This document shows, piece by piece, positions 1-24,919 of a stretch of 24,919 nt of DNA. Position 1 is the stretch's first letter; each line of letters opens with the position of its first letter. Where the stretch lies: positions 1 through 24,919 of the IMG/VR virus record IMGVR_UViG_3300027659_000193; one strand, written 5' to 3'. The position numbers and the translations under genes were made by a program. The notes under the pieces were generated by a model. It searched no databases. It saw only the letters and a program-made list of their open reading frames with translations, and was not told where the DNA came from. This stretch comes from a virus.

Positions 1-136
1 GGGCAGTCCCTTCCTAGTTTACTGTTCCCCTTACAGTACTGTACCAGACACCAGTCTGTGTCTGCTCAGTTCTCTTTTACCATTTAGGATGAAGAAGGGG
101 TAGTCTCAGTACTGGTCTATTCTCTTCTCTTTTAGG

Positions 137-156
137 GGAGGGCCGCTGGGCCCTCC
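137..156. other. Hairpin in the repeat region (8-bp stem, GCTG loop)
   Basis: GGAGGGCC pairs perfectly with GGCCCTCC around a 4-base loop. It is preceded by a pyrimidine-rich CTCTTTTAG and followed by ATCCTAGTCT. There is no T-run on either strand, so it does not look like an intrinsic terminator. Confidence 0.7.
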
Positions 157-228
157 ATCCTAGTCTGCTGTTCCAGTTACAGTACTGTAAGGATCTCAGT
201 ACTGTGTCTGCTCAGCTCTCTTATTAGG

Positions 229-247
229 GGGAGGCTCTAAGCCTCCC
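229..247. other. Second hairpin in the repeat region (8-bp stem, CTA loop)
   Basis: GGGAGGCT pairs perfectly with AGCCTCCC around a 3-base loop. Its flanks (CTCTTATTAG before, ATCATAGTCT after) match those of the hairpin at 137-156, while the stem bases differ on both arms. Conserved flanks with changed but still paired stems point to a structure kept by selection. Confidence 0.7.
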
Positions 248-400
248 ATCATAGTCTTTGTCTAGACCAGAACCACCCTGTCCATTCCCTTCCTACTGGG
301 TAATCTCAGTACTGTAAGGATCTCAGAGACTGTACTACTATAGTCTCGTGTTGCTCCTGATTCCGGCAACAAATAGTTCAAAATAGTTTAGGGTACAGAG

Positions 401-421
401 AGGGACTGCCCAACAGTCCCT
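401..421. other. Hairpin containing an inverted copy of the first 10 bases of the window
   Basis: AGGGACTG at 401-408 pairs with CAGTCCCT at 414-421 around CCCAA. Bases 402-411 are also the exact reverse complement of bases 1-10. The run of seven A at 434-440 lies on the wrong side for a + strand terminator. It could mark a boundary of the control region or act in packaging or replication; function unknown. Confidence 0.55.
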
Positions 422-463
422 CACAGGGCTCAGAAAAAAAGATCAGGTTTCTTCTCTGGCTGC

Positions 464-492
464 TTGACATCTTGCCAGCCCGGCAGTATATT
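464..492 (+). promoter_or_regulatory. Sigma-70 type promoter for the sigma-factor operon
   Basis: TTGACA at 464-469, a 17-base spacer and TATATT at 487-492: a perfect -35 and a 5/6 -10 element. The predicted transcript starts near 499, about 12 bases before the ATG at 511. It would be read by the host housekeeping polymerase. Confidence 0.75.
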
Positions 493-510: not shown

Positions 511-1179
511 ATGCTTCTAACATCCCTCCCTCGTGACCAAGAACCTATACACCAGGCCCTCAATATGAAGACTATACACCAGACCTCACCAGAATACAAG
601 CAGCTAGCACAGTATCTTTACTACAACCTCAACAAAGATTTCAAACAGTTCTATCGTAGCACCAGTTCAACCAACAGCAAAGCCAACGCTGCTGCTGTCT
701 CTAACAACATCAACCTTCCTGCTGAGGAGCTAGAGGATCGCAAGGTATCCTTCATTGCCTATGTCCTCCCAGAGCTAGTAGAGAAGGGAGCCACCCTGGC
801 TTCCTACAAGAGAAGCCGGCAGACTATCATCAACAGCTACCGCAATATGATGATAGACATGTGGCGTAGAGAGCAGACTGAGCGTAAGCACATAGTACAC
901 CTAGAGAACATCTATTCAGAAGACGGAGAAGACATGACCCCAAGCAACAACATCGCAGATACCACCGAGCCTTATGATGGTTCTATCGACAAGCTCTGGG
1001 CCAACTGGGCACAGTTTGTTGTGACCCTCTCACCCAAGGACAAGCAGCTAACCCTCTCTCTCCTAGGCCATACCTCAGCCATGCTGTCAAAGCAGCTTGG
1101 TATCCCCGAACGTACAGTACGTTATCAGGTAGAGAAACTACGGGCTTCCTTCCAGACCTTCTGCCTAAATAACAAATAG
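511..1179 (+). CDS. ECF-like RNA polymerase sigma factor (phage-encoded)
   Basis: A 222-residue protein with the layout of a small two-domain sigma factor. Around residues 98-127 a helical stretch with N-x-x-x-D-x-W-R-R (SYRNMMIDMWRREQTER) resembles the end of sigma region 2, which contacts the polymerase and the -10 element. Residues 173-214 (LSPKDKQL, then LSKQLGIPERTVRYQVEKLR) fit the region 4 helix-turn-helix that reads the -35 element. An acidic linker lies between them. The start at 511 is chosen because AAGAAGGGAGG lies just before it and because an upstream in-frame TTG at 472 falls between the -35 and -10 of the promoter, so it would not be transcribed. First gene of a + strand unit. 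By analogy with other phage sigma factors it probably redirects host polymerase to phage promoters. A helix-turn-helix regulator that is not a sigma factor remains possible. Confidence 0.65.
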   Translation: MLLTSLPRDQEPIHQALNMKTIHQTSPEYKQLAQYLYYNLNKDFKQFYRSTSSTNSKANAAAVSNNINLPAEELEDRKVSFIAYVLPELVEKGATLASYKRSRQTIINSYRNMMIDMWRREQTERKHIVHLENIYSEDGEDMTPSNNIADTTEPYDGSIDKLWANWAQFVVTLSPKDKQLTLSLLGHTSAMLSKQLGIPERTVRYQVEKLRASFQTFCLNNK

Positions 1180-3802: not shown

Positions 3803-4111
3803 ATGGCTGCGAAGAACAACTGGAAAGACATACTACCCAAGGCACCTGAACGGGAACCAAAACCGCTCACTGCCATATCAGCGGCTATCGCTAACAAGGA
3901 CATGGACGGCACGCTCCATGCCCTGCTTAAGCTCTACCTACATGAAGCTCAGTATACTGACACAGGTACTAGAGATATGCGGGAGCTTCTCCGGGACCTG
4001 TCTAGATTGGCCCTTGAAATCAAGAAAGCCACACCAGCTACAGATGATGAGAAGCAGGCCATGCTAAGAGAGCTGATGCAGTACATAGAAGGTAACAGTG
4101 AAGGCTCTTAA
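3803..4111 (+). CDS. Helical protein upstream of large terminase; alternative small terminase candidate
   Basis: A 102-residue protein, mostly helical, with two Leu-rich helices (about residues 36-50 and 57-75) and a charged tail. It ends 14 bases inside the terminase gene, and GAAGG plus the GTG start of terminase lie within its coding sequence, so the two are coupled. The position directly before large terminase is where the small subunit usually lies, but no DNA-binding motif is visible, unlike in the 3331 gene. GAGGA precedes its ATG. Confidence 0.5.
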   Translation: MAAKNNWKDILPKAPEREPKPLTAISAAIANKDMDGTLHALLKLYLHEAQYTDTGTRDMRELLRDLSRLALEIKKATPATDDEKQAMLRELMQYIEGNSEGS

Positions 4112-5609
4112 TCTAACAGACCCATACTGGTTTCTCAGTAGGCTATGGATATCAGACAAGAAGGGTAAGCTCATTCGTCTAGTGTTAAACGATGAGCAGA
4201 AGGCTGTCATAGCTGAGCTAGAGGCTGGGCGCAACCTAGTTATAGCCAAAGCAAGACAGCTTGGTATCTCTACTATAGTAACAGCATACCTGTTCTGGAA
4301 AACCTACATAGCAGTAGACCCAATCTCAGCAGTATCTATCCTACACAAACAGGATAGTGCTAACGAGATCTTCCTCAAATATGAGACCTTCCAGAATACC
4401 TTGCCCAAGGTTCTTCAGAAGAACCTATTGAAGAAGACTACCAGTACCCTGAGGTTCTCTACTGGGTCTTCTATCCTAGCTACTACTGCCGGAGGCCATG
4501 GTGGCCTCCGTTCCTATACACTGAATATAGCCCACATATCTGAGCTATGCTTCTACCAAGATCCTGATGAGCTATTAGCCACTGTTCTTTCTGCTTTGAA
4601 CGGCAACCAGATTATCATTGAATCTACTGCTAAGATGTATGGCGATCCGGTCCATCGTCTTGTTGACAAGATCCAGCGCGGCGAACTACAAGGAGACTGG
4701 AAGCTTCTCTTCTTCCCATGGCACGAGCACAAAGCCTATGCTCTTGACCTAGATGGTATATTCACACCAACTACAGAAGAAGCAGCACTAGCAGTACAAT
4801 ACAGCCTAAGCAATGAACAGCTATACTGGCGGCGTCTTAAGATACAAGAGATGGGTATCTCCAAATTCAAAACAGAATACCCAGCATGTCTAGAAGACAT
4901 CTTCTCTCAGAAGGGAGATGCTTACTATACTGACAATGACCTGGACCTCATAGAGCCATTCCTCCTACCAGCTAACCAAGAGCTTACATACATAGAGCCT
5001 CCTAATCCTCAGAAGAGATATGCTCTCGGTGTGGACGTAGCTTCTGGAGCAGGCAGAGACTATAGCGTAATCGTCGTCCTCGAAAGGACGACTAGCAATC
5101 CAGTATGTATATTCAGGTCTAATGAGATCACACCTATCAACCTCGCGCGGAAGATACAACACCTGTCTACCGAATACAATAATGCCAAGGCTCTTATAGA
5201 ATCAAACAACTGGGGACTACCAGTATTGAATGAACTGAGGAACCTAGGCTTCTCTAACCTATGGAAAGATCCTCAGGGTCAAGACTGGACCACTACCAGT
5301 AAATCCAAACTAGTCTTACACGAAGAGCTTAAAGAAGCTATCCGTAAAGGTATCATCAGTTCTCTTGATAACATCACACTGACAGAACTAAGAGAGCTAG
5401 CCCTCAACAAGAATGGACTAGCACCAGAATCAGTACGTGGATTGTCAGGTCATAGTGATCAGGTGATAGCCTTAGGTCTAGCCTTCCAATGTCTCAAAAC
5501 TGTAGAACGTCCGATGACCGCGGTCGAGAAATTTATGAAACAGCAGCAGACCTCTTCTGTCCGGAAGAGGCTTAACCTACATAGTACAATGCTACCGAGG
5601 TCTTACTAA
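4098..5609 (+). CDS. terL: Terminase large subunit (packaging ATPase and nuclease)
   Basis: A 503-residue motor that translocates DNA into the prohead and cuts it. The ATPase half carries a Walker A-like AKARQLGIST (residues 50-59; the lysine of the usual GKS/T is absent, as in many large terminases), a Walker B-like strand NIAHISEL ending in Glu149 and a coupling motif IIIESTA (172-178). The nuclease half has the three acidic motifs: GVDVASGAGRD (Asp313), ALIESN (Glu368) and GHSDQVIALG (Asp454). It starts with GTG, supported by GAAGG five bases ahead and by the N-terminal NLTDPYWF helix. The last 12 residues (492-503, LNLHSTMLPRSY) recur in diverged form at the end of the HNH gene that follows, suggesting that this C-terminus was replaced when the HNH gene arrived. 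Confidence 0.95.
   Translation: MKALNLTDPYWFLSRLWISDKKGKLIRLVLNDEQKAVIAELEAGRNLVIAKARQLGISTIVTAYLFWKTYIAVDPISAVSILHKQDSANEIFLKYETFQNTLPKVLQKNLLKKTTSTLRFSTGSSILATTAGGHGGLRSYTLNIAHISELCFYQDPDELLATVLSALNGNQIIIESTAKMYGDPVHRLVDKIQRGELQGDWKLLFFPWHEHKAYALDLDGIFTPTTEEAALAVQYSLSNEQLYWRRLKIQEMGISKFKTEYPACLEDIFSQKGDAYYTDNDLDLIEPFLLPANQELTYIEPPNPQKRYALGVDVASGAGRDYSVIVVLERTTSNPVCIFRSNEITPINLARKIQHLSTEYNNAKALIESNNWGLPVLNELRNLGFSNLWKDPQGQDWTTTSKSKLVLHEELKEAIRKGIISSLDNITLTELRELALNKNGLAPESVRGLSGHSDQVIALGLAFQCLKTVERPMTAVEKFMKQQQTSSVRKRLNLHSTMLPRSY
5571..5609 (+). repeat. Terminase 3-prime end, recoded copy of 6133-6171
   Basis: Twelve codons plus stop match the last 12 codons plus stop of the HNH gene at 6133-6171: 9 of 12 residues and 27 of 39 bases agree. 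Six codons differ only at the third position. The copies are 562 bases apart, the inferred length of the inserted unit. Confidence 0.85.
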
Positions 5610-5610
5610 C

Positions 5611-6171
5611 ATGAAGACATGCGCTAAATGTAAAGAAGAGAAATCTCTTGAGATGTTCAGTAAGGACAAGAGCAGGAAGGATGGCTTACAGCGTTGTTGC
5701 AAGGCGTGTATGTCTAATATAACTAAAGCCTGGCAGCAGGCAAATCCCGATAAAGCTTTAGCTCATACTGTGGCTTGGCAGAAAGCTAATCAAGACAAGG
5801 TTACTGCTACTAAAAGAGATTGGTATCAAGCTAATACCGAGAAGGCGAAGGCCGATGTAAAAGCCTGGAAGCAGAACAATCGAGACAAGATGGCAGCACA
5901 AAGCAAGGCTTACCTCCAGCGCCTAAACCTTGTCAACACTAAGATATCCAGACGGACACTAGCTGCTTGGGCTGCTCAGGTTAAAGCTCTTAATCCCCGT
6001 TGTGATTGGTGTCTCTGTGTTGACGATCTTGAAGCTCACCACATTCTACCCAAGGCTATGTACCCAGAACTGGCACTAGATATTTCCAATGGCCAGACCT
6101 TGTGTATAAAGCATCACGATGAAATCCATAGTCTAAATCTACATAGCACAGTTCTTCCTAGAGGGTTCTAA
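5611..6171 (+). CDS. HNH homing endonuclease 1, inserted in the terminase 3-prime end
   Basis: A 186-residue free-standing nuclease expected to cut DNA lacking the insertion and so spread its own gene. An N-terminal zinc finger (CAKC at 4-7 and CxxC near 30) is followed by four helical repeats of about 14 residues (pattern A-W-x-x-x-N-x-D/E-K), then the HNH domain: C-D-W-C, E-A-H-H-I-L-P-K, N-G-Q and C-I-K-H-H-D-E-I-H. Related protein HNH2 ends three residues after its HHDEIHS motif, but this one continues with LNLHSTVLPRGF, a copy of the terminase C-terminus. It starts one base after the terminase stop; its ribosome site GAGGT lies inside the last terminase codons. The end of the gene (AGAGGG) in turn supplies the ribosome site of the portal gene. 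Confidence 0.9.
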   Translation: MKTCAKCKEEKSLEMFSKDKSRKDGLQRCCKACMSNITKAWQQANPDKALAHTVAWQKANQDKVTATKRDWYQANTEKAKADVKAWKQNNRDKMAAQSKAYLQRLNLVNTKISRRTLAAWAAQVKALNPRCDWCLCVDDLEAHHILPKAMYPELALDISNGQTLCIKHHDEIHSLNLHSTVLPRGF

Positions 6172-6173
6172 AT

Positions 6174-7778
6174 ATGTCAATAGCTCAACGTAACTACCCA
6201 TCCCTAATCAGGCCGATCGTAGCCAGTCACAATCGATACTGGGAGGAAGCTCGCCCAACTATGGAGAAATACCGAGATGTCTATGGCATTGATTTCTACC
6301 GTGGTGATAACAAGAGAGATGATCTTGCTATTCAGGTAGCAGATGCTAACAGCTTCATTGAAGGTTACATCGCATCCCTCTTTAGTAAAGCACCATCGGT
6401 TCGTATCGGTGAAGATGTCAAAGCCTCTGGTGGTAATGAAGAGGTAGCCGAAGCTATCGTAAACAGATTCCTCCTCAACCAGCAGGAGACTATCACCAAC
6501 GCTGCTCGTCTTGCTCTCATCTACCCAATGGCCTTCCTTAAGATCATCTGCTCTAGAGCTAATGATGATGAGGTCTTGAACAAATTCTCCATTGCAGCTA
6601 TCAAGCCGTGGGACATTCTCCTAGATATGACAGCACCTGATTGGGATAGTCAGCGTTGGGTCGGGCACATAACCTCCATGCCTGTTAACATTGCTAATGA
6701 GAAATATGGGAAGAAGGACTGGAAGCCAGCGCCTCTTAAGGACTATTTCTCTGACACTAAGCTATCTACCTATGAGGTAAAGGACCTCCCTGATGAATTC
6801 CTTTACGTACAGGTTATCGAATTCTATGACCTCATCAACAACAAGCTAGTCTTCTGGTCCCCTAACTGGAAGAACGGTGATGCACCTATTGAGGTTCTAG
6901 ACATTCCTGTTATGGATCATGATGGTAGCTTCATGACACCTATCATCCCACTGTACCTCTGCTCCACGCCTGATGCTCCTCTTAAGGGCTTTAGCTCCCT
7001 TAAGAAAATCTATGACCAGATCAGAGAGAAGAACCTTATCCGCACCCACATTGCCAAGGCTATCCGTAGAGATACCCGTCAGGTTGGATATAAAGAGGGG
7101 GCCTTCGATGAAGAGAGCTTAGCTAAACTAGAGGGTGGTCTAGACAACTGCTTCGTCCCATTCAAGGGCGACATAGACCCCCGCTTAGCTTTCGCTGTTA
7201 TTCCCAACCTAGCCCTATCTTCTAACTATTCTGTACACCTTGGTCTTGTTGAACAGGATCTTGCGCGCGCATCAGTCCTCGCCCCCTTCACAAGAGGAGA
7301 AGCTACCAGAGCAACAGCTACTGAGGTAACAGCCTTAGTACAATATACTGCTGCTGAGATTGGTAAGATGGCTCGTGCTCGTGACAGTGCAATAGAGAGA
7401 TTGGCGCGCACCTACATTCGTATGATAGAAGCATTCCTAGATGAAGAAGATGAGAAGACTGTTATCCTTCTAGATGGTAAGGTACACACAGTTAAAGCTA
7501 GTGAGCTTGATGGCAAGATGAGAATCTTCGCTCTAGACGGTGGCTCCATGCCTCTAGCCAAGGCTACACAGAAGGCTGAACTAGTCTCTCTAATCCCCAT
7601 CCTACAGGCTAGTGGCGTCCCTCAGGACGCTATCCTAAAGGGTATAGTGGAACTGTTTGATCTTGACGGTAATCTCTTCAAGGCCGCACCACCTCCCCCA
7701 CCAATGCCACCACCAGTGCCTAATGCTCCACCAGTGCCGGGTCTACCAGTAGACCCCCTAGCTAAGATGGGGGTGTAA
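6174..7778 (+). CDS. Portal protein
   Basis: A 534-residue protein between terminase and scaffold, the standard place and size for the dodecameric ring through which DNA enters and leaves the head. The N-terminal part (HNRYWEEARPTMEKYRDVYG) is helical as in podovirus portals. Strand-rich wing segments sit around residues 130-270. A long helical stem-like region (TEVTALVQYTAAEIGKMARA, about 384-425) resembles portal clip/stem segments. The last 33 residues are proline-rich (PPPPPMPPPVPNAPPVPGLP), an unusual flexible tail that may contact scaffold or other head proteins. Identification rests on position, length and general pattern, not on a diagnostic motif. Confidence 0.85.
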   Translation: MSIAQRNYPSLIRPIVASHNRYWEEARPTMEKYRDVYGIDFYRGDNKRDDLAIQVADANSFIEGYIASLFSKAPSVRIGEDVKASGGNEEVAEAIVNRFLLNQQETITNAARLALIYPMAFLKIICSRANDDEVLNKFSIAAIKPWDILLDMTAPDWDSQRWVGHITSMPVNIANEKYGKKDWKPAPLKDYFSDTKLSTYEVKDLPDEFLYVQVIEFYDLINNKLVFWSPNWKNGDAPIEVLDIPVMDHDGSFMTPIIPLYLCSTPDAPLKGFSSLKKIYDQIREKNLIRTHIAKAIRRDTRQVGYKEGAFDEESLAKLEGGLDNCFVPFKGDIDPRLAFAVIPNLALSSNYSVHLGLVEQDLARASVLAPFTRGEATRATATEVTALVQYTAAEIGKMARARDSAIERLARTYIRMIEAFLDEEDEKTVILLDGKVHTVKASELDGKMRIFALDGGSMPLAKATQKAELVSLIPILQASGVPQDAILKGIVELFDLDGNLFKAAPPPPPMPPPVPNAPPVPGLPVDPLAKMGV

Positions 7779-7779
7779 C

Positions 7780-7977
7780 ATGCCTCTCTATACCTACACA
7801 TGCCCACACGGGGATACCACAGATGTTCTTACCTCTTACGAGAAAAGACCAGAGGTAGTTTTTTGTGAGAAATGTGGTCAAGCCGCTAGACAAACTATAG
7901 CTCTTCCTGCTAAAACAGAATATAGGTGGGGCGATTATGCCAACACCTATAACCCACGGAACGGTGGAAAGAAATGA
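7780..7977 (+). CDS. FmdB-like zinc-ribbon protein 1
   Basis: A 65-residue protein with the typical start M-P-L-Y-T-Y-T-C of small zinc-ribbon proteins. Possible metal ligands are Cys8, His10, Cys29 and Cys32 (FCEKCG). The C-terminus is basic. It begins one base after the portal stop, with GGGGGTG as ribosome site. Such proteins are common between portal and scaffold genes in phages; their role in the head is unknown. It appears to be a shorter paralogue of the zinc-ribbon protein beyond the HNH gene: both have Cys8 and a CxxC about 20 residues later. Confidence 0.75.
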   Translation: MPLYTYTCPHGDTTDVLTSYEKRPEVVFCEKCGQAARQTIALPAKTEYRWGDYANTYNPRNGGKK

Positions 7978-8435
7978 AGACAAAACAAGATACATGTCCT
8001 GATTGCTCCAGCCCAAAAGACTATCGGTCGGTACGATGTCGGGCTTGTTCTCGGAGACATTCCAAGCCCTGGAATTCCGAGCAACGGCAGAGACATAGTG
8101 AATGGTGGCACAAGAAAGCCGCAGAAGGCAATCCTCCTGGCTCTAAGCTAGGCACTAAACAATCTCAAGATACTATCCAAAAGAGATTGCTGACTAGAGG
8201 AATGAACTATCTTCCCATAGAGGAGAGAGGTTCGCGTTGGAAATATTTCCTTTGGGCAAAAGCCGTAAAAGAAAGAGATCTTGTCTGCGTCTATTGTGGC
8301 GGAGAAGATCGTCTTCACGCTCATCATATTCTATCTAAAAATAAACATCCGTTGCTATCCTTGAAGGTCGACAATGGTATAACATTATGTCATGGTTGTC
8401 ATTGGGACGAGCATCGTCTTAATGGCTATCTATAA
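7974..8435 (+). CDS. HNH homing endonuclease 4 with NUMOD3-like segment
   Basis: A 153-residue nuclease, unrelated to the other three HNH proteins outside the catalytic core. N-terminal zinc ribbon CPDC (8-11) with CRAC (22-25); a NUMOD3-like DNA-binding segment near residues 53-75 (GSKLGTKQSQDTIQKRL, pattern G-x-x-x-S-x-x-T-I-x-K); then the HNH core CVYCGGEDRLHAHHILSK, DNGITLC and CHWDEH. It starts inside the stop of zinc-ribbon gene 1 (ATGA overlap), so it borrows translation from that gene. Its TAA stop is in the same frame as the next zinc-ribbon gene, only four codons before that gene's presumed ATT start. Confidence 0.85.
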   Translation: MKTKQDTCPDCSSPKDYRSVRCRACSRRHSKPWNSEQRQRHSEWWHKKAAEGNPPGSKLGTKQSQDTIQKRLLTRGMNYLPIEERGSRWKYFLWAKAVKERDLVCVYCGGEDRLHAHHILSKNKHPLLSLKVDNGITLCHGCHWDEHRLNGYL

Positions 8436-8879: not shown

Positions 8880-9383
8880 ATGAAACTATTACCAGACCAA
8901 CTAGGTCAGATAGCCGTAGATGATAAGCAAGCTCGTGATGAGCAGATGATGACTATAGCCCCCAAGGCTATAGGCACCTTCAGTCCAACAGCATTGAACA
9001 AACTAGTAGCTGCTTGGAACAAGCTCTCTAAACTGTTTGGTATCAGCGAAGCTTATGAGACCTTCAGTGAACCACAGAAGGTCTTCCCCGTAGAATTTAC
9101 CAAGCTTATTGCTATGGCTAGCTCTGCTATTGAAGACGCTGTTGCTGCTGAGGTACTAAGCTCCGATCTTCTATTAGACCTTGCTAACACCAAGAAGGAT
9201 CAGGATGTAGTTCTCCTTGCTGCCAAGATTGAACAGGCTGCTAAGAACGCTGCCTTCAAGAGCTTCCTAATGGAAGCGCCACCTGAACCCAGTGAACCAG
9301 AGGAACCTTCTGAGATCGCAGAAGAGGAAGCTCCCATGGACGAGGACGCTTTCCTAAACATGATCAGCACACGTATGAAATGA
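8880..9383 (+). CDS. Helical protein with acidic tail, head-assembly accessory
   Basis: A 167-residue protein, mainly helical for the first 128 residues, then a Pro/Glu-rich acidic tail (PPEPSEPEEPSEIAEEEAP) and a short amphipathic end. Acidic tails are common in proteins that work with scaffold during head assembly. The position between portal and scaffold fits, but no family is recognised. AAGGA precedes the ATG. Its last four bases (ATGA) contain the start of the next HNH gene. Confidence 0.65.
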   Translation: MKLLPDQLGQIAVDDKQARDEQMMTIAPKAIGTFSPTALNKLVAAWNKLSKLFGISEAYETFSEPQKVFPVEFTKLIAMASSAIEDAVAAEVLSSDLLLDLANTKKDQDVVLLAAKIEQAAKNAAFKSFLMEAPPEPSEPEEPSEIAEEEAPMDEDAFLNMISTRMK

Positions 9384-9868
9384 AAACCTGTACCAAATGC
9401 AAAGAGGAGAAACCTCTTGATATGTTTGGAAAAGACAATAGGCACAAAGACGGTTTACAGTCCTCTTGTAAGGAATGTGAAACGAAAAGAACACAATCCT
9501 ACTATGAAGATCATCCTGAGAAGAGACAGCTATCATTGAGAGATTATGCGCAGAGGAATCCTGATAAGGTCAGAGAATCTCAGAGAAGGTGGAAGAAGGA
9601 GAATCCTGATAAGGTTTATGCTAAGAACCAACGATATCTTACTAAGCTCAATCTAGCTAACTGTGAGATATCTCAGCGTACACTAAATGCCTGGGCTGCT
9701 CAGGTGAAAGCTCTTAATCCCCGTTGTGATTGGTGTCTCTGTGTTGATGATCTTGAGGCCCATCATATCAAACCTAAAGCTTTGTACCCAGAACTGGCAT
9801 TGGATCTTACCAATGGACAGACCTTGTGCACGAAGCATCATGACGAAATACATTCAACTAAATTCTAA
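9380..9868 (+). CDS. HNH homing endonuclease 2 (mosaic of HNH1 and HNH3)
   Basis: A 162-residue nuclease of the same family as the 5611 and 19182 proteins: zinc finger CTKC (4-7) with a second Cys pair near 30, three helical repeats of about 14 residues (one fewer than its relatives), and the HNH core CDWCLCVDDLEAHHIKPK, NGQTLC, KHHDEIHS. It starts inside the stop of the upstream gene (ATGA). DNA at 9566-9682 is 116/117 identical to 19425-19541 in HNH3, whereas the C-terminal part from 9695 closely follows HNH1 from 5971. The protein therefore looks like a recombinant. It separates the acidic-tail protein from scaffold. Confidence 0.9.
   Translation: MKTCTKCKEEKPLDMFGKDNRHKDGLQSSCKECETKRTQSYYEDHPEKRQLSLRDYAQRNPDKVRESQRRWKKENPDKVYAKNQRYLTKLNLANCEISQRTLNAWAAQVKALNPRCDWCLCVDDLEAHHIKPKALYPELALDLTNGQTLCTKHHDEIHSTKF
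9566..9682 (+). repeat. 117-bp near-identical block shared with HNH3 (19425-19541)
   Basis: Direct comparison gives one mismatch in 117 bases (T at 9617, A at 19476). The block spans the last two helical repeats and the linker into the HNH domain. Similarity falls off sharply on both sides. Confidence 0.9.
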
Positions 9869-9886
9869 CCTATTGAGAGCACTGTT

Positions 9887-10744
9887 ATGGAAACAAACAA
9901 TACGCCCACAAGCACTACCTCCTCAACCCCAGCACCTACAGCAGATGCAAACACTACCACAACCTCTAATACAGAGACTGGCGGGGCACCTAACAAACCT
10001 GTAGCACCACTATCTACCTTCGATGAATTCATGAATGTAGATTTCTCAGACCAGCCCCAGCTTCAGGAGATCATGTCCTCTGAACACACGGGCCTCCCAC
10101 ACTACAAAGATCTTCTAAACAAGCACACTACCGTAGAAGGTAAGAAGCTTCTTGCTAACATGCGTGCGGATTACACACGCAAGACACAAGAGATTTCTTC
10201 TATGAGAAAGCAGATGGCAGACCGTGAGGCTGCCATCCTAGCCAGAGAACAGTCTCTCTATCAGGGTGATTTCGCCCGCAAGGTAAATGAGACTGCCACC
10301 AAAGATGCCTCTGCTCTTGACCCCTACGTACAAGAAGACCTTGCTCAGATCATAGAGATCCAGACAGCTAAGCGTCTACAGGATATGCTTAAGCCCTATC
10401 AGGAGGAGATTGCCTCTAAGCAGCACATGCTTGAAGCACAGCAGTTTGTTGAGCGCCACCCTGAAATGAAGACTGAAGCTTTCAAAGAGAAGCTCATTCC
10501 TCTCCTATCCAGCCGCGGTGATCTTGATCTAGAGACTGCCTACCTTATAGTAAAAGGACAGCTTGCAGATGTGCAAGCTACAGCCCAACAGGAGCAGACA
10601 AAGCTTAAGCAGACTGCTAAGGAAGCTGCAAGACAGACTATCGCCAAGACTACTGGTACACAGAACGCTGGCCCCGCAACACCCCCAAGAAGAATGTCTC
10701 CTACAGAGGCTCTCAAATTCTTCGCTTCTCAAAAGAAAGGATAA
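9887..10744 (+). CDS. Capsid scaffolding protein
   Basis: A 285-residue protein just upstream of the capsid gene, with the composition typical of scaffolds: a Thr/Pro/Ala-rich disordered start (residues 1-45), long charged coiled-coil helices (about 85-130 and 215-260, with QTAKRLQDMLKPYQEEI between) and a basic end (PRRMSPTEALKFFASQKKG). Scaffolds guide shell assembly and then leave the prohead; basic C-termini commonly bind the capsid protein. The ribosome site is weak (GAGAG). The HNH gene inserted directly upstream may have replaced its original leader. Confidence 0.8.
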   Translation: METNNTPTSTTSSTPAPTADANTTTTSNTETGGAPNKPVAPLSTFDEFMNVDFSDQPQLQEIMSSEHTGLPHYKDLLNKHTTVEGKKLLANMRADYTRKTQEISSMRKQMADREAAILAREQSLYQGDFARKVNETATKDASALDPYVQEDLAQIIEIQTAKRLQDMLKPYQEEIASKQHMLEAQQFVERHPEMKTEAFKEKLIPLLSSRGDLDLETAYLIVKGQLADVQATAQQEQTKLKQTAKEAARQTIAKTTGTQNAGPATPPRRMSPTEALKFFASQKKG

Positions 10745-11185: not shown

Positions 11186-12199
11186 ATGGCAGTATCTTCG
11201 GACGTTCTCGCGTCTACCCTACAGTATATCCTCGAAGAGGAAACCGAAGCCGTCAAACGTCGGCACGCATTCCTCGATTACGCTGAGAAAAGCAAGGGCA
11301 TTGAAACCCTAGACGGCGGCGCTCGTATCGACGTAGCCGTTGGCGTAAAAGACCATTCCCTCATCACCTACCACAGCGATGGCTACGAAGCCACCGACGA
11401 GACCATCCAGGATGTGCTCGTGTCTGCTCAGTTCCCCTGGGCCTTCTGGACCGCACCTGTTGCTCTCTCCGCCAAGCGCGCTCTTGAGAACAGTGGCGAT
11501 GCCGCAATCGTAAGCCTCTACAGCGCCCACGTTAAGAGCGTTATGGATCGTATGGGTCGTGACCTTAACGGTCAGATCCTCAACGGTTCGCTCGTTGGTA
11601 CTGGCCTTGAGACCCTTTACGGTGCAGCCGCTGGTGTTACCACCGGGTTCATCGAAGGTGTTGCTAAGGCTTCTCAGGACAACACCGTTGGTGGTGTCTC
11701 GAAAGCTACCTACAACGTCCCCGGCTGGACCAACGCATTCGCCTCCGCAGGCGGTGCATTCGCAACCAACGGTAAGACTGGTATGGATTCGATCCAGACC
11801 CAGATCATGGCCGTACATCAGGGTCCAAAGCCTGTTGATGTAGTCATCGCTTCTGAGGCGGCCTTCCGTCTCTACAAGCAGACCCTCTTCGCAAACGAGC
11901 GTTATGTCTCTGATGCAGAGCTTGATGGTGGTCGTATGAACCTCCTCTTTGCAGGCGCCCCTGTCGTACCTGACCTCGCCATGAGCGTAGCTGGTCGTGC
12001 TGGTGATGCAATCTTCTCCATGTATTTCCTCAATTTCAATGGTGTTAAGCTCTATTTCCACACTGATGGAAAATTCAATCTCGTCAGCCGCGGTCGTGCC
12101 CTTGGGTATGCCACTGACACCTGGCAGGTACAGCTTATGGCTCAGCTTGTAGGTTGTCACATGGGCTCCCTCGGTGTTCTTACCAACGGCGACGCATAA
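11186..12199 (+). CDS. Major capsid protein
   Basis: A 337-residue protein following scaffold and preceding a decoration protein, the expected size and place for a HK97-fold shell subunit. The N-terminal helix is charged (LEEETEAVKRRHAFLDYAEK); the middle has long strands and helices (QFPWAFWTAPVALSAKRALE), and the end has the hydrophobic strands usual for this fold. Codon use differs sharply from neighbours: I read no AGA, AGG or ATA codon and only two CTA in the whole gene, whereas these are frequent elsewhere. This is the mark of a very highly expressed gene. Assignment is by context, size and codon use, not by a diagnostic motif. Confidence 0.88.
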   Translation: MAVSSDVLASTLQYILEEETEAVKRRHAFLDYAEKSKGIETLDGGARIDVAVGVKDHSLITYHSDGYEATDETIQDVLVSAQFPWAFWTAPVALSAKRALENSGDAAIVSLYSAHVKSVMDRMGRDLNGQILNGSLVGTGLETLYGAAAGVTTGFIEGVAKASQDNTVGGVSKATYNVPGWTNAFASAGGAFATNGKTGMDSIQTQIMAVHQGPKPVDVVIASEAAFRLYKQTLFANERYVSDAELDGGRMNLLFAGAPVVPDLAMSVAGRAGDAIFSMYFLNFNGVKLYFHTDGKFNLVSRGRALGYATDTWQVQLMAQLVGCHMGSLGVLTNGDA

Positions 12200-19182: not shown

Positions 19183-19757
19183 TGAAATACTGTACTGGGT
19201 GTGATAACACGAAAGCCTCAGAGATGTTCTATAAAGATAAGAGCAAGAAAGATGGATTGTCTTCATCTTGTATGGACTGTGCTAAGACGCGGGCGCAGGA
19301 TTGGTATCAGTCAAACCCTGAACAGGCTAAAGAGACACGGGCATTATATCGTACAGCTAATCCAGAAAAGATTAAAGAAATAAATAGAGCTTGTGCCAAG
19401 AATTGGCGAGAGGCTAATCCACAGAAGGTCAGAGAATCTCAGAGAAGGTGGAAGAAGGAGAATCCTGATAAGGTTAATGCTAAGAACCAACGATATCTTA
19501 CTAAGCTCAATCTAGCTAACTGTGAGATATCTCAGCGTACATTGAATGCTTGGTCCTCACAAGCCAGGGCGGCCCACCCATACTGTGAGCTATGTCTAAC
19601 TACTGACAACCTTGAAGCTCATCACATATTACCCAAGAGCAGATATCCTCAACATGCTTTGAACCTAACTAATGCTCAGATCTTATGTGCCGATTGCCAC
19701 ACCGATATTCATACTGAGATTCCCAATCTAAAGAAAGAGGAGGTTTCCCTTGCCTAA
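19182..19757 (+). CDS. HNH homing endonuclease 3
   Basis: A 191-residue nuclease of the HNH1/HNH2 family: zinc finger CTGC (4-7) with CxxC near 30, four helical repeats of 14 to about 20 residues (N-P-E/D-K pattern), HNH core CELCLTTDNLEAHHILPKSR, NAQILC and CHTDIH, then a 15-residue tail. It starts with GTG, using the AGGAG at the end of the ejection-protein gene. Its own end carries AGGAGGT, the ribosome site of the next gene, which it overlaps by eight bases. It shares a 117-bp block with HNH2. It separates two ejection-protein genes. Confidence 0.9.
   Translation: MKYCTGCDNTKASEMFYKDKSKKDGLSSSCMDCAKTRAQDWYQSNPEQAKETRALYRTANPEKIKEINRACAKNWREANPQKVRESQRRWKKENPDKVNAKNQRYLTKLNLANCEISQRTLNAWSSQARAAHPYCELCLTTDNLEAHHILPKSRYPQHALNLTNAQILCADCHTDIHTEIPNLKKEEVSLA
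19425..19541 (+). repeat. 117-bp block shared with HNH2 (9566-9682)
   Basis: Partner of the block in HNH2: 116 of 117 bases identical, about 9.86 kb apart in the same orientation. Such a direct repeat is also a possible site of deletion by recombination. Confidence 0.9.
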
Positions 19758-21657
19758 GATGATCTACCCAGGTGTCTATGTTCTAGATACCCCACAGACT
19801 GAGGCTTTTCAGTCTTCCCGTGCTAGCAAATATCTTACCTCTTATACCGAATCTCGCTATGAGAACTGGCAGCTTGCCCTAAAGCAAGCTGAGCTAGCAT
19901 ACAAGATGGACTATGACGCTTACACCTCTCGTGACAAAGCTCTCCGTGATTTAGAAGAGGCTGCTCGTAAAGACCTTACCTCTGCTGAGCGGACCCTGCT
20001 TTCTCTACAGAAAGAAGACAGGGCAACTGAAGACAAAGAAAGAGCTATTAAGGCTAGCCGTACCACAGAGCATGATAAATGGAAAGCTTCTGAGGTAGGT
20101 AAGGATCGTCGTACTAATGTTATGGCTGGAGCACCAAAGAGCATGGGACCGGGAGGAGAGAAGGTAGCTGCTCAGACAGTAGATGCTCTCTTTAAGAATG
20201 CTCAATCAGAAACAGATATAGAAGAAGCCTCGAAGGAGCTTCTCGGTCTGATCTTAGATGATACATCTGACGCACAGGGTTTCCGTTCAGCCACAGCGCA
20301 ACGTACTGGGGTAGCTGAGGACCGTATCGGCGCATATATAGCCAAGGAGGCGGCTACCCTTGCTGCCAAGAAGAGAGAGAAGCTTGGGCTTCCCCCTAGT
20401 GCTGGCAAAGGTTATGAGAAGGATCTCGCCGCCTTGGGCGCTTCTTATGCACCTGGGGTTGCAAGCTCAGGTCGTAGTGGTGGTAGCCGTGGAAGCTATG
20501 ATCCCACCAGTCCTGAATTCGTAGACCGTAGTGAAGCTATCAAGGCTGCTGAAGCTGACATCGCTGCTAAGAAAGCCTCGTATGCCGAGGCTCTCCTTGC
20601 ACGTACCGGTCTCTCTATGCCCAAGCCCAACCTAGTAGAATCTGCTAGAGACATCTACGCTTCCCAGTTTGAAACCCTACCCGGTTATCTCAAACACAAA
20701 GAAGACCTACGTTCTGTAGAAGCTCAACGTAGAGCCCATGAGAATACTGCGGCTCTTGTTGAACTGTTTGTCGAAGACCGTAAGAAAAAGCTTGGTGAGA
20801 GCCCTTCGATGGAAGACCTCTTGGCTGCTAAGACAGAAGGTGCAAAGGATGCATTGTTCTTCTTGAAGCACAAGGAATTACGTGGTAAGGCACAGAACCT
20901 TAACACCCCCATCCTTGAAGCAGGGAAGGTTGTTGGGTTCAAGCCAGCAGGCTTTGACATTGAAGCCCCTATGCAGGATGAGAAGGAATCCCTGTGGGAT
21001 TACATTGATGGTGCCAAGAAAGGACAGCCTATCCCAGAAGGGCTTAGAGGCCCCTTAGAGGGGCTTGTCTCTGCTCCTGGCTCTGCCCCTAGCCCTGGTG
21101 CTAGAACCGATTCTAGCCCTATTAGCGGTGATCCTGAAGAGGACTACGATCTTGGTGACACTGATGCCACTATCAAGCTACCCCCTTCTGTACGTATTGA
21201 ACAGATGAAGGCGCTTAAGAGCGCCCTCGGTAACCTTGATGTAGTAGACCCGGCTACCAAGCCAATATCTGAATCTGAGCTAGATGCATTCCAGTTCGGT
21301 AAGGGCGGTGGTGTATTACCCCCGGCGCCAGCAACAGTTAAGATTGAGAAGAGACCAGATGCTGAGCTAGTAATGGAGGAGATCAAGAACAAAGGTCCCA
21401 AGGTCCAAGAGGGCCGTGCTATCTCTGCTCAGATCAAGGACAGTCATGAGCTAAGCAAGCAGCCTAAGAAGGTTGAGCGCCTTGCATCTACGACCTCATA
21501 TGGTAAATATGTAAAGGATCTGTATGTTGCTAACAAGGCATCGACCACGCCTCAGAACGGAGCACAGTTAAGAGAGCAGGTTCTACAGAACCTTCCCGAA
21601 GGAGAAAGGGAAGCAGCTTCGCGCCTGCTCTTCGCCCTGATTTTGCTAGACAAATAA
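19750..21657 (+). CDS. Large internal virion (ejection) protein
   Basis: A 635-residue charged, helical protein. The first 120 residues form a coiled coil (RYENWQLALKQAELAYKMDY, LRDLEEAARKDLTSAERTLL). A Gly/Ser-rich linker (about residues 235-255) separates it from further helices, and a Pro/Ser/Asp-rich disordered stretch lies near 440-470. No enzyme motif seen. It lies between a small ejection-like protein and a giant one, the usual order for such proteins. The TTG start is chosen because AGGAGGT (19738-19744) stands five bases ahead; the next ATG at 19759 would be 14 bases away. Confidence 0.6.
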   Translation: MPKMIYPGVYVLDTPQTEAFQSSRASKYLTSYTESRYENWQLALKQAELAYKMDYDAYTSRDKALRDLEEAARKDLTSAERTLLSLQKEDRATEDKERAIKASRTTEHDKWKASEVGKDRRTNVMAGAPKSMGPGGEKVAAQTVDALFKNAQSETDIEEASKELLGLILDDTSDAQGFRSATAQRTGVAEDRIGAYIAKEAATLAAKKREKLGLPPSAGKGYEKDLAALGASYAPGVASSGRSGGSRGSYDPTSPEFVDRSEAIKAAEADIAAKKASYAEALLARTGLSMPKPNLVESARDIYASQFETLPGYLKHKEDLRSVEAQRRAHENTAALVELFVEDRKKKLGESPSMEDLLAAKTEGAKDALFFLKHKELRGKAQNLNTPILEAGKVVGFKPAGFDIEAPMQDEKESLWDYIDGAKKGQPIPEGLRGPLEGLVSAPGSAPSPGARTDSSPISGDPEEDYDLGDTDATIKLPPSVRIEQMKALKSALGNLDVVDPATKPISESELDAFQFGKGGGVLPPAPATVKIEKRPDAELVMEEIKNKGPKVQEGRAISAQIKDSHELSKQPKKVERLASTTSYGKYVKDLYVANKASTTPQNGAQLREQVLQNLPEGEREAASRLLFALILLDK

Positions 21658-21695: not shown

Positions 21696-24600
21696 ATGGC
21701 TATACCTGTTACCCCTGACCGTCTCACTGAAGATATGAAGAAGCTGGCAAAGGCTTTTGGAAAAGAATGGCCAGCCGATCTAGACGAGCAGGAGGCCCTC
21801 CTCTCTGAGCACCCCAGTATGAGGGACCAATATGAGAGATACAAATTAGTAGATACCACGACGATCTCTGCTACCGAATCTTCAAATAAGGCTAAGACCT
21901 CTAGGGGTGAAGCTGCGTCCCAGACAAGAGATAGCAGAGCAGAAAGAGAGAAGCTTACTGGGCCACCTATCATCAAACCTCCTCCTCCTGATGAATATAC
22001 CAAGGGGAAGACACAGCTTGCTGGACCTTATGGAGCCAAGAGGGAGGCTTCGGGTTATCCTATTGTAGAGACACCACAGTTCTATCCTGATGGTCCATCC
22101 TATTTTGAGATGATAGCTCCTCAGTCTAGCAATGCTTCTATTGATATAGCGGGTCCAGTGCAGGATCAGTTTATGGTCAGAAAAGATTCTACCCCTGGAG
22201 AATCTAAGAATTTTCCTTTACAGACATCAGTTGAGGATTTAATTGAGAAGGCTCGGGAGGAAGCTGATAACGCTATTCATGATGAGCAGATGAAATTCGG
22301 TTGGGGTTACGCAAAGCAGAAAACAGATGAGGAGAGGAAAGCTTACCGAGAGCGTAGATGGAGAAACCTAGAGACTGCTTTCAGAGATCCTAAATATATT
22401 CGTAGATCTTCTGAGAAGGGTAAGACACAGGCAGAGCTTGATGTAGATATCTTTGGCAAGAGCACCACGCTTGGTGCCACACCTGATATAGACATTGAGA
22501 CTAGCAAGACCCTGGAATATTTCCGGTCTGCACTAGCTCGTCAGAAGAAGGCAGATCTAGAAGCTCATGGCACTAGCCCAGAGACAGCTAGTGCTGAAGC
22601 TATTGCTTGGGCCAACAGTCTTCTTGGTGCTCCTCAGTGGTGGCAGAATCCTAAACAGAAAGCGGCTAAGCTTCGTGAGAAGCCTGAGACCTATTCTGTT
22701 CTTGGCTTTGGTGTAGATGTATATCCTTCTGGTACAGTAGTTGAGACTACACCAGCACAGATGGCTCGTATCATTGGTACTGGTAGCTCCCTTATCTCTG
22801 GTATGGCTGGCTCTCTAGCCAGCGAGGTTACCCCCGGTCTAGCTGAAGCCCGTAAGGAATCTGAGATAGCTCCTATCAAAGATGTGACTGGTGCCGACAA
22901 TGCATGGGACCGTGCAGTAGATTCAGGTCTTCTTAATATCAAGGCTGGTCGCGGTGTAGCTGAGGAAGCTTATGATGCTGCTACTAATGCTGATGCTCCT
23001 GACTGGCTTAAGAAAGCTGCTTATGGTACTGGCCTTGTAGTAGACATTGTAGCTGTACCTCTTGTACCTGGTAGTGGTATAGCAAAAGGTGGTGCTCGCG
23101 CCGCCAAAGAACTATCCTTCGCAGGTAAGGTCCTAGAAGAAGGTGCTCAGCTTACCAAGGGTGAGAAGGGCGCTTATGTCTTAGGTAGAATCCTAGAAGA
23201 GAACCCAGTATCCAATGCTATTGCTAAGAGACTAAACCTAGTACCCGGTGATATCAGACTAGTGGCAGCCGAGAGAGCATTCGCAGATACCAATGATCTT
23301 ACAGCAGCTATAGACCTAGCAGAGAAAGCCAAGGCAGTTGAGAAATCAGGGAGATCCCCTGAGGTATTCCTTAAGGATCTTGCTGAGAACAATCCTTATG
23401 GTAAGAGAATGTTGAAGGAGCTTGGCGGACATGTCACTGCTGAAGAAGCAATATCGTGGTTAGCTAAGAAGGCAGAAGGCAATGAGATCTCCAAGAAGGC
23501 TGCTGTTATCATGTCTAAGCTTGATGAGGTGCCCACGAATCCCCGTGCCATCCATGAGGCTACAACACAGAAGATACTGAGGGCTGACGACATGCCTCGC
23601 TATGTTCAGGATACCTTGCGTATGAACCCTGACATGGCTGCACAGGTACGTGCCTTCATTGGAGAGGGTAGCTTAGGCGCATCCCCCGAAGCCATCCTAT
23701 CTGAGATACTGTCCAAGCCCAACTGGCGCAAGGAGCTTCTGCGTACAATCACACTAGATAAGACCCTCGGTCATATCATAGAAGAGACTGCTAAGCTTCC
23801 TGCATGGAGAGCACTGGACGAAAACCCCTTCTATCTCCTAACTGGTAGAACTGCTGTAACCTCTGAAGAGAATGCAGCGAAGATTCTTAAGGCTGCTCGT
23901 GAGACAGATGTCTCCAAAGCTATTCAGGAAGGTGTAGCAGGAAAGACAGAAGGTGTACTGAAGGAAGCACAGGAAGCTGATGCTGAGCTAGCAGGAGCTT
24001 TCTACCAGAGCCGTATGCCCCTGACACCAAAAGGTGTTCAGGCTATCTATGACTACATTCAGACAAGAAAGGCCGATACCTCATTCCAGTCTCCGTTGCT
24101 TGATGAGATTCTTACTGACATGGGTGCTGGTGCTAAATTCGATAGCAAAGGATTCTCACAGACTATCTCCTCAGAGAATGCTCGTAAGCTTATTGAGATG
24201 CAGATTGATGATGTAGCCCGCCTATCTCCAGATGGTAAGATCCTTGCCATAACAGAGAAGGAAATCCGTAAGCTTCCTCAGTCAGTACAGACTGATCTTC
24301 TCAAGCCCGTGCCGCTCCGTAGAGGGGCTGTCACTAGAGGGGTAGCTAAGCTAGTCCGGGACGAAACCCTTGGTGATCTCTCTAGCCTAGGCATTCCTGC
24401 ACAGAAAGCCCTGGCTGCCATGCAAGCAGAGATGGCTGGTATTGACAAGACCCTCTCAACACAGATCAAGGAGCTTACTACCAACGAAGATCTATGGAAG
24501 CTCTATGGGTTCACCTCTGCTCCTAGTGAGCGTACGGCTATGCTCGCCCTCATCTTTATCCCACGCCCCAAGATCCTTGGTGCTATGGCCTCTGACAGTG

Positions 24601-24919
24601 TAAAGGCTAGGGTAGACTACCTATTAGAAGATGCTATTGCTAGATCTTCTGAGCTTACTGATCTTGCTGAGGGTCTCTCTGTAGGTGGGAGAAGCACCCC
24701 GTCCAAGCTCTCAGACTATATCTCTACTATTGCAGTCTCTCGTTGGAATGAGGCTATGCTCTTTATTCGTTCTGAGCTTGACACAGCTAAGAACGCATTG
24801 CGCCATGACCTTGTAGCTGAGACTAGCAGACATGGTACTGCTGAGATGGCTGACGCTTTGGAGCGTCAGGCTGCTGCTATCCGTACATATCTAGGGAAGG
24901 TAGCTGAGATAACTGCGCC
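21696..24919 (+). CDS. Giant internal virion (ejection) protein, 3-prime end outside the window
   Basis: I read this frame from the ATG at 21696 to the last base without a stop: at least 1,074 residues. GAGGT lies six bases before the ATG. Residues 1-330 are charged with Pro-rich stretches; two Gly/Ala-rich hydrophobic segments follow, about 356-385 (MARIIGTGSSLISGMAGSLA) and 434-455 (AAYGTGLVVDIVAVPLVPGS). The remainder is long Ala/Glu/Lys-rich helices. This resembles the largest ejected proteins of podoviruses, which line the envelope channel and often carry a lytic transglycosylase; no such domain is visible in the part present. A packaged enzyme further downstream cannot be excluded. Confidence 0.65.
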   Translation, partial: MAIPVTPDRLTEDMKKLAKAFGKEWPADLDEQEALLSEHPSMRDQYERYKLVDTTTISATESSNKAKTSRGEAASQTRDSRAEREKLTGPPIIKPPPPDEYTKGKTQLAGPYGAKREASGYPIVETPQFYPDGPSYFEMIAPQSSNASIDIAGPVQDQFMVRKDSTPGESKNFPLQTSVEDLIEKAREEADNAIHDEQMKFGWGYAKQKTDEERKAYRERRWRNLETAFRDPKYIRRSSEKGKTQAELDVDIFGKSTTLGATPDIDIETSKTLEYFRSALARQKKADLEAHGTSPETASAEAIAWANSLLGAPQWWQNPKQKAAKLREKPETYSVLGFGVDVYPSGTVVETTPAQMARIIGTGSSLISGMAGSLASEVTPGLAEARKESEIAPIKDVTGADNAWDRAVDSGLLNIKAGRGVAEEAYDAATNADAPDWLKKAAYGTGLVVDIVAVPLVPGSGIAKGGARAAKELSFAGKVLEEGAQLTKGEKGAYVLGRILEENPVSNAIAKRLNLVPGDIRLVAAERAFADTNDLTAAIDLAEKAKAVEKSGRSPEVFLKDLAENNPYGKRMLKELGGHVTAEEAISWLAKKAEGNEISKKAAVIMSKLDEVPTNPRAIHEATTQKILRADDMPRYVQDTLRMNPDMAAQVRAFIGEGSLGASPEAILSEILSKPNWRKELLRTITLDKTLGHIIEETAKLPAWRALDENPFYLLTGRTAVTSEENAAKILKAARETDVSKAIQEGVAGKTEGVLKEAQEADAELAGAFYQSRMPLTPKGVQAIYDYIQTRKADTSFQSPLLDEILTDMGAGAKFDSKGFSQTISSENARKLIEMQIDDVARLSPDGKILAITEKEIRKLPQSVQTDLLKPVPLRRGAVTRGVAKLVRDETLGDLSSLGIPAQKALAAMQAEMAGIDKTLSTQIKELTTNEDLWKLYGFTSAPSERTAMLALIFIPRPKILGAMASDSVKARVDYLLEDAIARSSELTDLAEGLSVGGRSTPSKLSDYISTIAVSRWNEAMLFIRSELDTAKNALRHDLVAETSRHGTAEMADALERQAAAIRTYLGKVAEITA

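Follow-up and report, generated by a model that had tools for sequence, protein, structure and literature searches.

The linear IMG/VR phage record IMGVR_UViG_3300027659_000193, of which a stretch of 24,919 bp was analysed (the window in what follows), comes from an uncultured phage and opens with a gene-free gap of 460 bases in which one short palindrome recurs. This raises the question of what such an array does at the edge of a phage contig. A first-pass annotation had suggested three functions, i.e. a multi-operator switch, a replication origin or a packaging region, of which the multi-operator switch fits best. The repeated-palindrome region is real and of an ordinary kind, and we give a probability of about 0.5 to its being the section with multiple operators in a control region between divergent early and late transcription, governed by a phage regulator that would be encoded off the contig. 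That the region is without an open reading frame, as annotated earlier, was correct: no ORF of at least 50 aa lies wholly within 1-377, and 1-460 holds only the end of a minus-strand frame (378-599). The features on which the argument draws are collected in Table 1.

Table 1. Features of the gap and of the neighbouring genes; positions are those of the window.
Feature	Position	Strand	Description
Palindrome CAGTACTG	34..41		Inside 12-bp palindrome TACAGTACTGTA (32-43)
CAGTCTG	52..58		Degenerate partner of site 34; matches site 197 in the 146-bp register
Palindrome CAGTACTG	107..114		Single site, neighbours 73 bp away
Palindrome CAGTACTG	180..187		Inside 14-bp palindrome TTACAGTACTGTAA (177-190)
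Palindrome CAGTACTG	197..204		Partner of site 180, 17 bp off; TAAGGATCT between
Palindrome CAGTACTG	307..314		307-326 is an exact repeat of 180-199
CAGAGACTG	324..332		Degenerate partner of site 307
Pyrimidine-rich module GTCTGCTCAGTTCTCTTTTA, copy 1	60..79	+	Downstream slot 80-100 without hairpin
Pyrimidine-rich module GTCTGCTCAGTTCTCTTTTA, copy 2	115..134	+
Pyrimidine-rich module GTCTGCTCAGTTCTCTTTTA, copy 3	206..225	+
Contig start GGGCAGTCCCTTCCTAGTTT	1..20	+
Hairpin A	137..156		GGAGGGCC-GCTG-GGCCCTCC, 8 bp, loop 4
Hairpin B	229..247		GGGAGGCT-CTA-AGCCTCCC, 8 bp, loop 3
Hairpin C	400..422		GAGGGACTG-CCCAA-CAGTCCCTC, 9 bp; absent from the first-pass annotation
Sigma-70-type promoter	464..492	+	TTGACA-17-TATATT; 150 bp past the last exact palindrome
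Sigma-factor-like ORF	511..1179	+	222 aa from ATG 511; in-frame TTG at 472
Endolysin	1725-2252	minus
Terminase	4098-5609
Portal	6174-7778
Capsid protein	11186-12199

The palindrome CAGTACTG is present in five copies, at 34, 107, 180, 197 and 307, and no other copy exists in the 24,919 bp of the window. The spacings between successive copies are 73, 73, 17 and 110, which bears out the earlier description of five copies with three of them 73 bp apart. For the whole window 0.64 copies are expected, and five were reached in one of 100 shuffles. When the whole window was simulated 40 times with a second-order Markov model, the highest number of copies of an 8-mer per 300 bp was three, and three was also the maximum in the real window outside 1-460, vs five in the array. 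The palindrome array is more than chance.

Part of the regularity of the palindromes and hairpins is accounted for by tandem duplication. The region had been read as two diverged units of 146 bp, and in this register 9-43 matches 155-189 at 86% identity and 56-76 matches 202-222 at 95%. The period is imperfect, however: position 253, which should match 107, is without a palindrome, and the last copy of CAGTACTG follows 180 by 127 bp rather than by 146. The array is better described as modules than as two 146-bp units. A module begins with a palindrome, to which a second one, 17 bp further along, is often added; GTCTGCTCAG.TCTCTTTTA comes next, then a G-rich slot and finally TAGTCT. Only at 197 is the second member of a doublet exact; at 52-58 and 324-332 it is degenerate. 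Bases 1-11 are the exact reverse complement of 401-411, and the first 20 bases of the contig resemble the 3' arm, with its flank, of one more unit that was cut by the contig end. Helical phase was assessed on the first-site palindromes only; at 10.5 bp/turn sites 34, 107, 180 and 307 share one phase (0.0, 0.95, 0.90 and 0.0), a weak test because two of the three intervals have the same length and the result varies with the assumed pitch, the phasing being lost at 10.6 bp/turn and with site 307 drifting at 10.4.

The core of the palindrome, AGTACT, occurs five times in the window and always inside the array. Its absence from 461-24919 compares with 5.6 copies expected from a maximal-order model, and its absence from the genes with 7.9 copies expected from synonymous shuffles, 0 of 300 of which were free of it. 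This depletion is part of a general purge of palindromes, since at least 13 hexamer palindromes, AGTACT included, are wholly absent from 461-24919 and palindromic hexamers together are depleted there (241 vs 344 expected). The purge is probably a response to restriction. Five copies that survive in one gap despite this purge are unlikely to be idle, and the CAGTACTG palindromes look functional.

The first-pass annotation placed the region upstream of a promoter and a sigma gene. The promoter stood; for the sigma gene the match of ORF 511-1179 to Sigma70_r4_2 (E 0.02-0.03, 14.3-14.9 bits) remains below the Pfam curated cut-off of 25.7. A structural model of the protein, made without relatives, reached a pLDDT of 47.6. 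As a sigma factor gene the ORF is weakly supported.

Neither for the region nor for the sigma-like gene was a close relative found among phages, plasmids or genome contigs, or in IMG/VR when searched by a 20-mer and by protein, and the sigma-like ORF had no relative in 173 loci or 18 whole contigs. The contigs of the clade were found only via searches with terminase, portal and capsid protein, of which terminase and portal gave at least 80 loci each. The closest relative is IMGVR_UViG_3300036985_007718 (capsid 78%, terminase 60%, o726 59%, portal 55%, endolysin 51%). Its contig also begins in a gap, of 430 bp, behind which come a first gene, two small ones and an endolysin in convergent orientation; because the order is the same, this gap is regarded as syntenic with that of the window. 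The first genes after the two gaps differ. In its first 50 bases the relative's gap contains palindromes and hairpins (TAGGTACCTA, CCTCCCT-CTA-AGGGAGG and ACAGTA-ACC-TACTGT), and a promoter precedes its first gene. The palindrome CAGTACTG is absent from the closest relative, and the two gaps are unalignable (42 and 109 of 200 shuffles were as good on the two strands). Loss of the spacing and the palindromes in relatives was what the first-pass annotation had named as speaking against its reading; the closest relative keeps neither, with the reservation that its contig also breaks inside the region. The anatomy may persist while sequence and spacing change.

A scan of 82 loci and the window for at least three equal 8-bp palindromes within 400 bp returned CAGTACTG only in the window and in its copy L001, and other words in L064, L077 and L079; none of the 71 loci of the TerL search beyond the three nearest has kept the array. 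Locus L002 differs at 3 of 2850 positions. Among the IMG/VR stretches with CAGTACTG triplets at a spacing of 58-88 bp, 12 in number, none had the modules of the region, and several look like within-gene repeats (e.g. L083, L087 and L088). Two other candidates were set aside. The stretch 5051-5400 of L021 lies inside an ORF (9665-10531 of its contig) and is not a non-coding array. The gap at 1997-2633 of L016, between an HTH gene and a late operon, contains 11-bp tandem repeats TCCTGATAGAA and GC-rich hairpins; as an analogous array it was rejected, the adjoining HTH gene not being related to the gene of the window.

The end overlaps of three clade contigs (77 bp at 100%, 272 bp at 99% and 60 bp at 98%) give genome sizes of 33.0, 32.5 and 33.9 kb. 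If the genome of the window phage is about as large, some 8 kb are missing, and the left neighbour of base 1 is plausibly a leftward early operon. Among the 11 relatives that were mapped, these three included, early/late strand switches are often in or near a gap, and in some the two operons diverge from it. In one of them, G015, the leftward operon encodes Erf, a cytosine methylase and an HTH_3 regulator, and the gap from which this early operon starts contains the inverted repeat TATACAGTTCAACTGTATA. For the window, the rightward operon is present beside the region, and the divergent arrangement is suggested by the maps of the relatives only, as no contig of the window's own subclade spans both sides.

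These observations are consistent with the following organization. Bases 1 to about 345 would form the right-hand part of a control region that lies centrally in the phage genome and is transcribed divergently. In it, the CAGTACTG palindromes would be putative operators of a dimeric phage regulator encoded outside the contig, arranged as the doublets 34/52, 180/197 and 307/324 and the single site 107. Joint binding to them would switch between a predicted leftward early operon, off the contig, and the rightward operon that is read from the promoter at 464-492 and begins with the sigma-like gene. As in switch regions, near-identical sites are repeated within a gene-free region, and the helical phasing of the first sites suits a looped complex or a protein that sits on a single face of the helix. 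The one visible promoter has no adjoining site, as the nearest exact copy ends 150 bp upstream of 464. In 1-520 no leftward sigma-70 promoter with at least 9 of 12 matches was seen (best 8/12), and the contig contains no candidate gene for the regulator in the form of a DNA-binding protein.

The proposed control region can be compared with the switch of the lactococcal phage TP901-1, in which several palindromic operators (OR, OL and OD) are served by one repressor in and near a divergent promoter region of less than 1 kb (PMC7250872). The likeness lies in the several palindromic operator-like sites within a short control region. In TP901-1, however, the repressor, both promoters and the binding are known, whereas the window contig is without regulator or left promoter; the TP901-1 motif differs, and the sites in the window are at least 150 bp from the sole visible promoter. 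Mycobacteriophage stoperators are likewise many repeated repressor sites in a phage genome, but they are asymmetric and spread over the genome, whereas the window has one palindromic cluster. If the multi-operator reading is true, a control region is marked for a phage lineage known almost only from metagenomes, and the CAGTACTG doublets are a defined bait for finding the regulator.

A replication origin, in which a phage initiator would use the palindromes as iterons and the hairpins would serve for primase or single-strand entry, appears unlikely. Phased repeated palindromes in a gene-free region would suit it, and the gene right after the syntenic gap of the closest relative (L175 11985-13154, minus strand) encodes a protein of 389 aa with motifs that, read by eye, we take to be family-A-polymerase-like. 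This protein had no match in Pfam, and its best PHROG is a family of unknown function. The window itself argues against an origin. There are no DnaA boxes in 1-500 (the only one in the window is at 6101), and no stretch is AT-rich, the lowest 40-mer in 1-500 having 35% GC vs 22.5% elsewhere in the window; on these two points the earlier suggestion of an origin lost ground. The next gene is sigma-like rather than a replication gene, and no initiator gene was recognised in the window. With lambda ori, an iteron-type phage origin, the array shares palindromic repeated sites and helical phasing. The iterons of lambda ori are spaced by about 20, whereas the sites in the window are 73-127 bp apart, with no AT-rich stretch and no initiator gene seen.

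The region could also have no present function and be a decayed tandem duplication, the hairpins of which were kept perfect by template-switch mutation. The hairpins bear directly on this. Three such hairpins within 460 bp were found in 0 of 2000 Markov sequences of the region's own composition. As the first-pass annotation noted, A and B occupy equivalent slots and their stems differ yet remain paired: five of the eight pairs are identical, three are changed on both sides and none is broken. The probability that all three changes are compensated is about 0.0003 under random placement, a value that assumes independent point changes. From this compensation selection on structure had been concluded, which is not supported on these grounds. 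The compensated changes occur between two copies within one genome and not across independent relatives, and the third slot (80-100, with flanks 60-79 and 101-106) holds CCATTTAGGATGAAGAAGGGG, which has no significant fold (z 0.09). Moreover, the contig as a whole contains 18 perfect hairpins of at least 8 bp vs 2.7 expected, and 13 of them are inside genes vs 1.6 expected from synonymous-codon shuffles (maximum 6 in 200). The comparison with the closest relative covered 11 of these 13, those in ORFs 19750-21657 and 21696-24917 being left out; none of the 11 is kept whole, and 1-6 of their 8-9 pairs remain. In the hairpins at 14969 and 18216 one arm is near-conserved in the relative and the other differs at 6 or 7 of its 8 positions, a pattern to be expected from template switching, whereas most of the other compared gene hairpins have changes on both arms. 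According to PMC8794818, template switching can both create and repair perfect stems. The selection argument is weak, because an excess of hairpins that includes the genes fits template-switch mutation. In a contig rich in perfect hairpins, compensated stem changes are no proof of selected structure, which matters beyond this case. The excess is not clade-wide, as the closest relative (L095) has 2 perfect hairpins and most others are near expectation. In one other contig (G009, of locus L029) 24 perfect hairpins were counted vs 3.3 expected; the excess in the window is about seven-fold and mostly in genes.

An idle duplication would agree with this excess, and also with units that are diverged and incomplete and with one of three hairpin slots being empty. 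It leaves unexplained why five exact palindromes stand amid diverged flanks and why the contig lacks AGTACT everywhere else, and we regard it as improbable. With the palindromes as operators, the GC-rich hairpins would be secondary, i.e. leftovers of duplication and template switching, or accessory RNA or DNA structures.

A structured RNA or leader with signals for attenuation, antitermination or processing, transcribed from a promoter to the left of the contig, is a distinctly poor candidate. Among 1240 segments of 120 nt in the window, those at 121 and 141 fold most stably, and the plus strand of 1-510 folds with a z of -4.95, a score that is inflated because the copies of the palindrome pair mutually by construction. 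Rfam gave no match in 1-460 at E up to 1. No T-run follows any of the three hairpins and the third slot is unfolded; none of hairpins A, B and C was scored as an intrinsic terminator, and hairpin C, which is without a T-run, is therefore not one. A packaging (pac) site or recognition site for the small terminase subunit is very unlikely: relatives look circularly permuted, and two of them (G015 and G018) exceed one genome length with overlaps at 83% identity, but these overlaps may be mixed assemblies because 17% of their positions differ, the terminase large-subunit gene is about 3.6 kb away and nothing ties the region to packaging.

The word CAGTACTG itself led to a separate and cheaply testable observation. 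The window phage and the Klebsiella jumbo phage RaK2 (JQ513383/NC_019526, record G019) were brought together by the search for CAGTACTG, as was a second jumbo record, a 371-kb contig (G020), via loci L085 and L093. The palindrome occurs 247 times in RaK2 and 205 times in the 371-kb contig, the reversed word 1 and 2 times, respectively. In a 49-kb stretch of RaK2 (L199, 200001-249000), 49 of the 93 sites are fully intergenic, while 22% of the stretch is non-coding; the stretch was chosen for containing L085 and is richer in sites than the genome average, so that these shares may not hold for all 247. In two examples from L085 that were picked by eye the palindrome lies between -35 and -10. A general location in promoter spacers was rejected, as it applied to 9 of the 93 sites, compared with 128 of 500 positions drawn at random from gaps. 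RaK2 shares with the window the identical 8-bp palindrome, enriched between genes, but has about 250 copies over 346 kb, in genes and gaps, whereas the window has five in one gap; no relatedness was seen. The literature matches listed, most of them on microRNA, contained no description of CAGTACTG as a phage site, which is not proof of absence. That a palindrome-binding system encoded by phages and common to unrelated ones targets CAGTACTG is highly improbable. The role of such a system could be in nucleoid organization, partition or global transcription; if it were true, its targets would be hundreds of scattered copies in jumbo phages of the RaK2 type and a compact array for control in the small phage of the window.

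Some further observations concern the genomes around the region. In the closest relative (L095/L175, G001) the terminase-portal module follows the tail module, and in the window it lies between endolysin and capsid; between the two there is a module rearrangement at the endolysin junction. The records that run past one genome length, G015 (L109) and G018 (L114), have the same genes repeated at their ends and may each combine two strains of one phage with circular permutation. HNH/endonuclease-VII-like ORFs are scattered through the head module of the window (5611-6171, 7974-8435 and 9380-9868), the last of which also has weak matches to zinc-finger families, the Lar-like one among them. The ORF at 2371 is preceded, at 2316-2345, by a sigma-70 promoter of perfect consensus (TTGACA-18-TATAAT), which sits in the lowest-GC 40-mer of the window.
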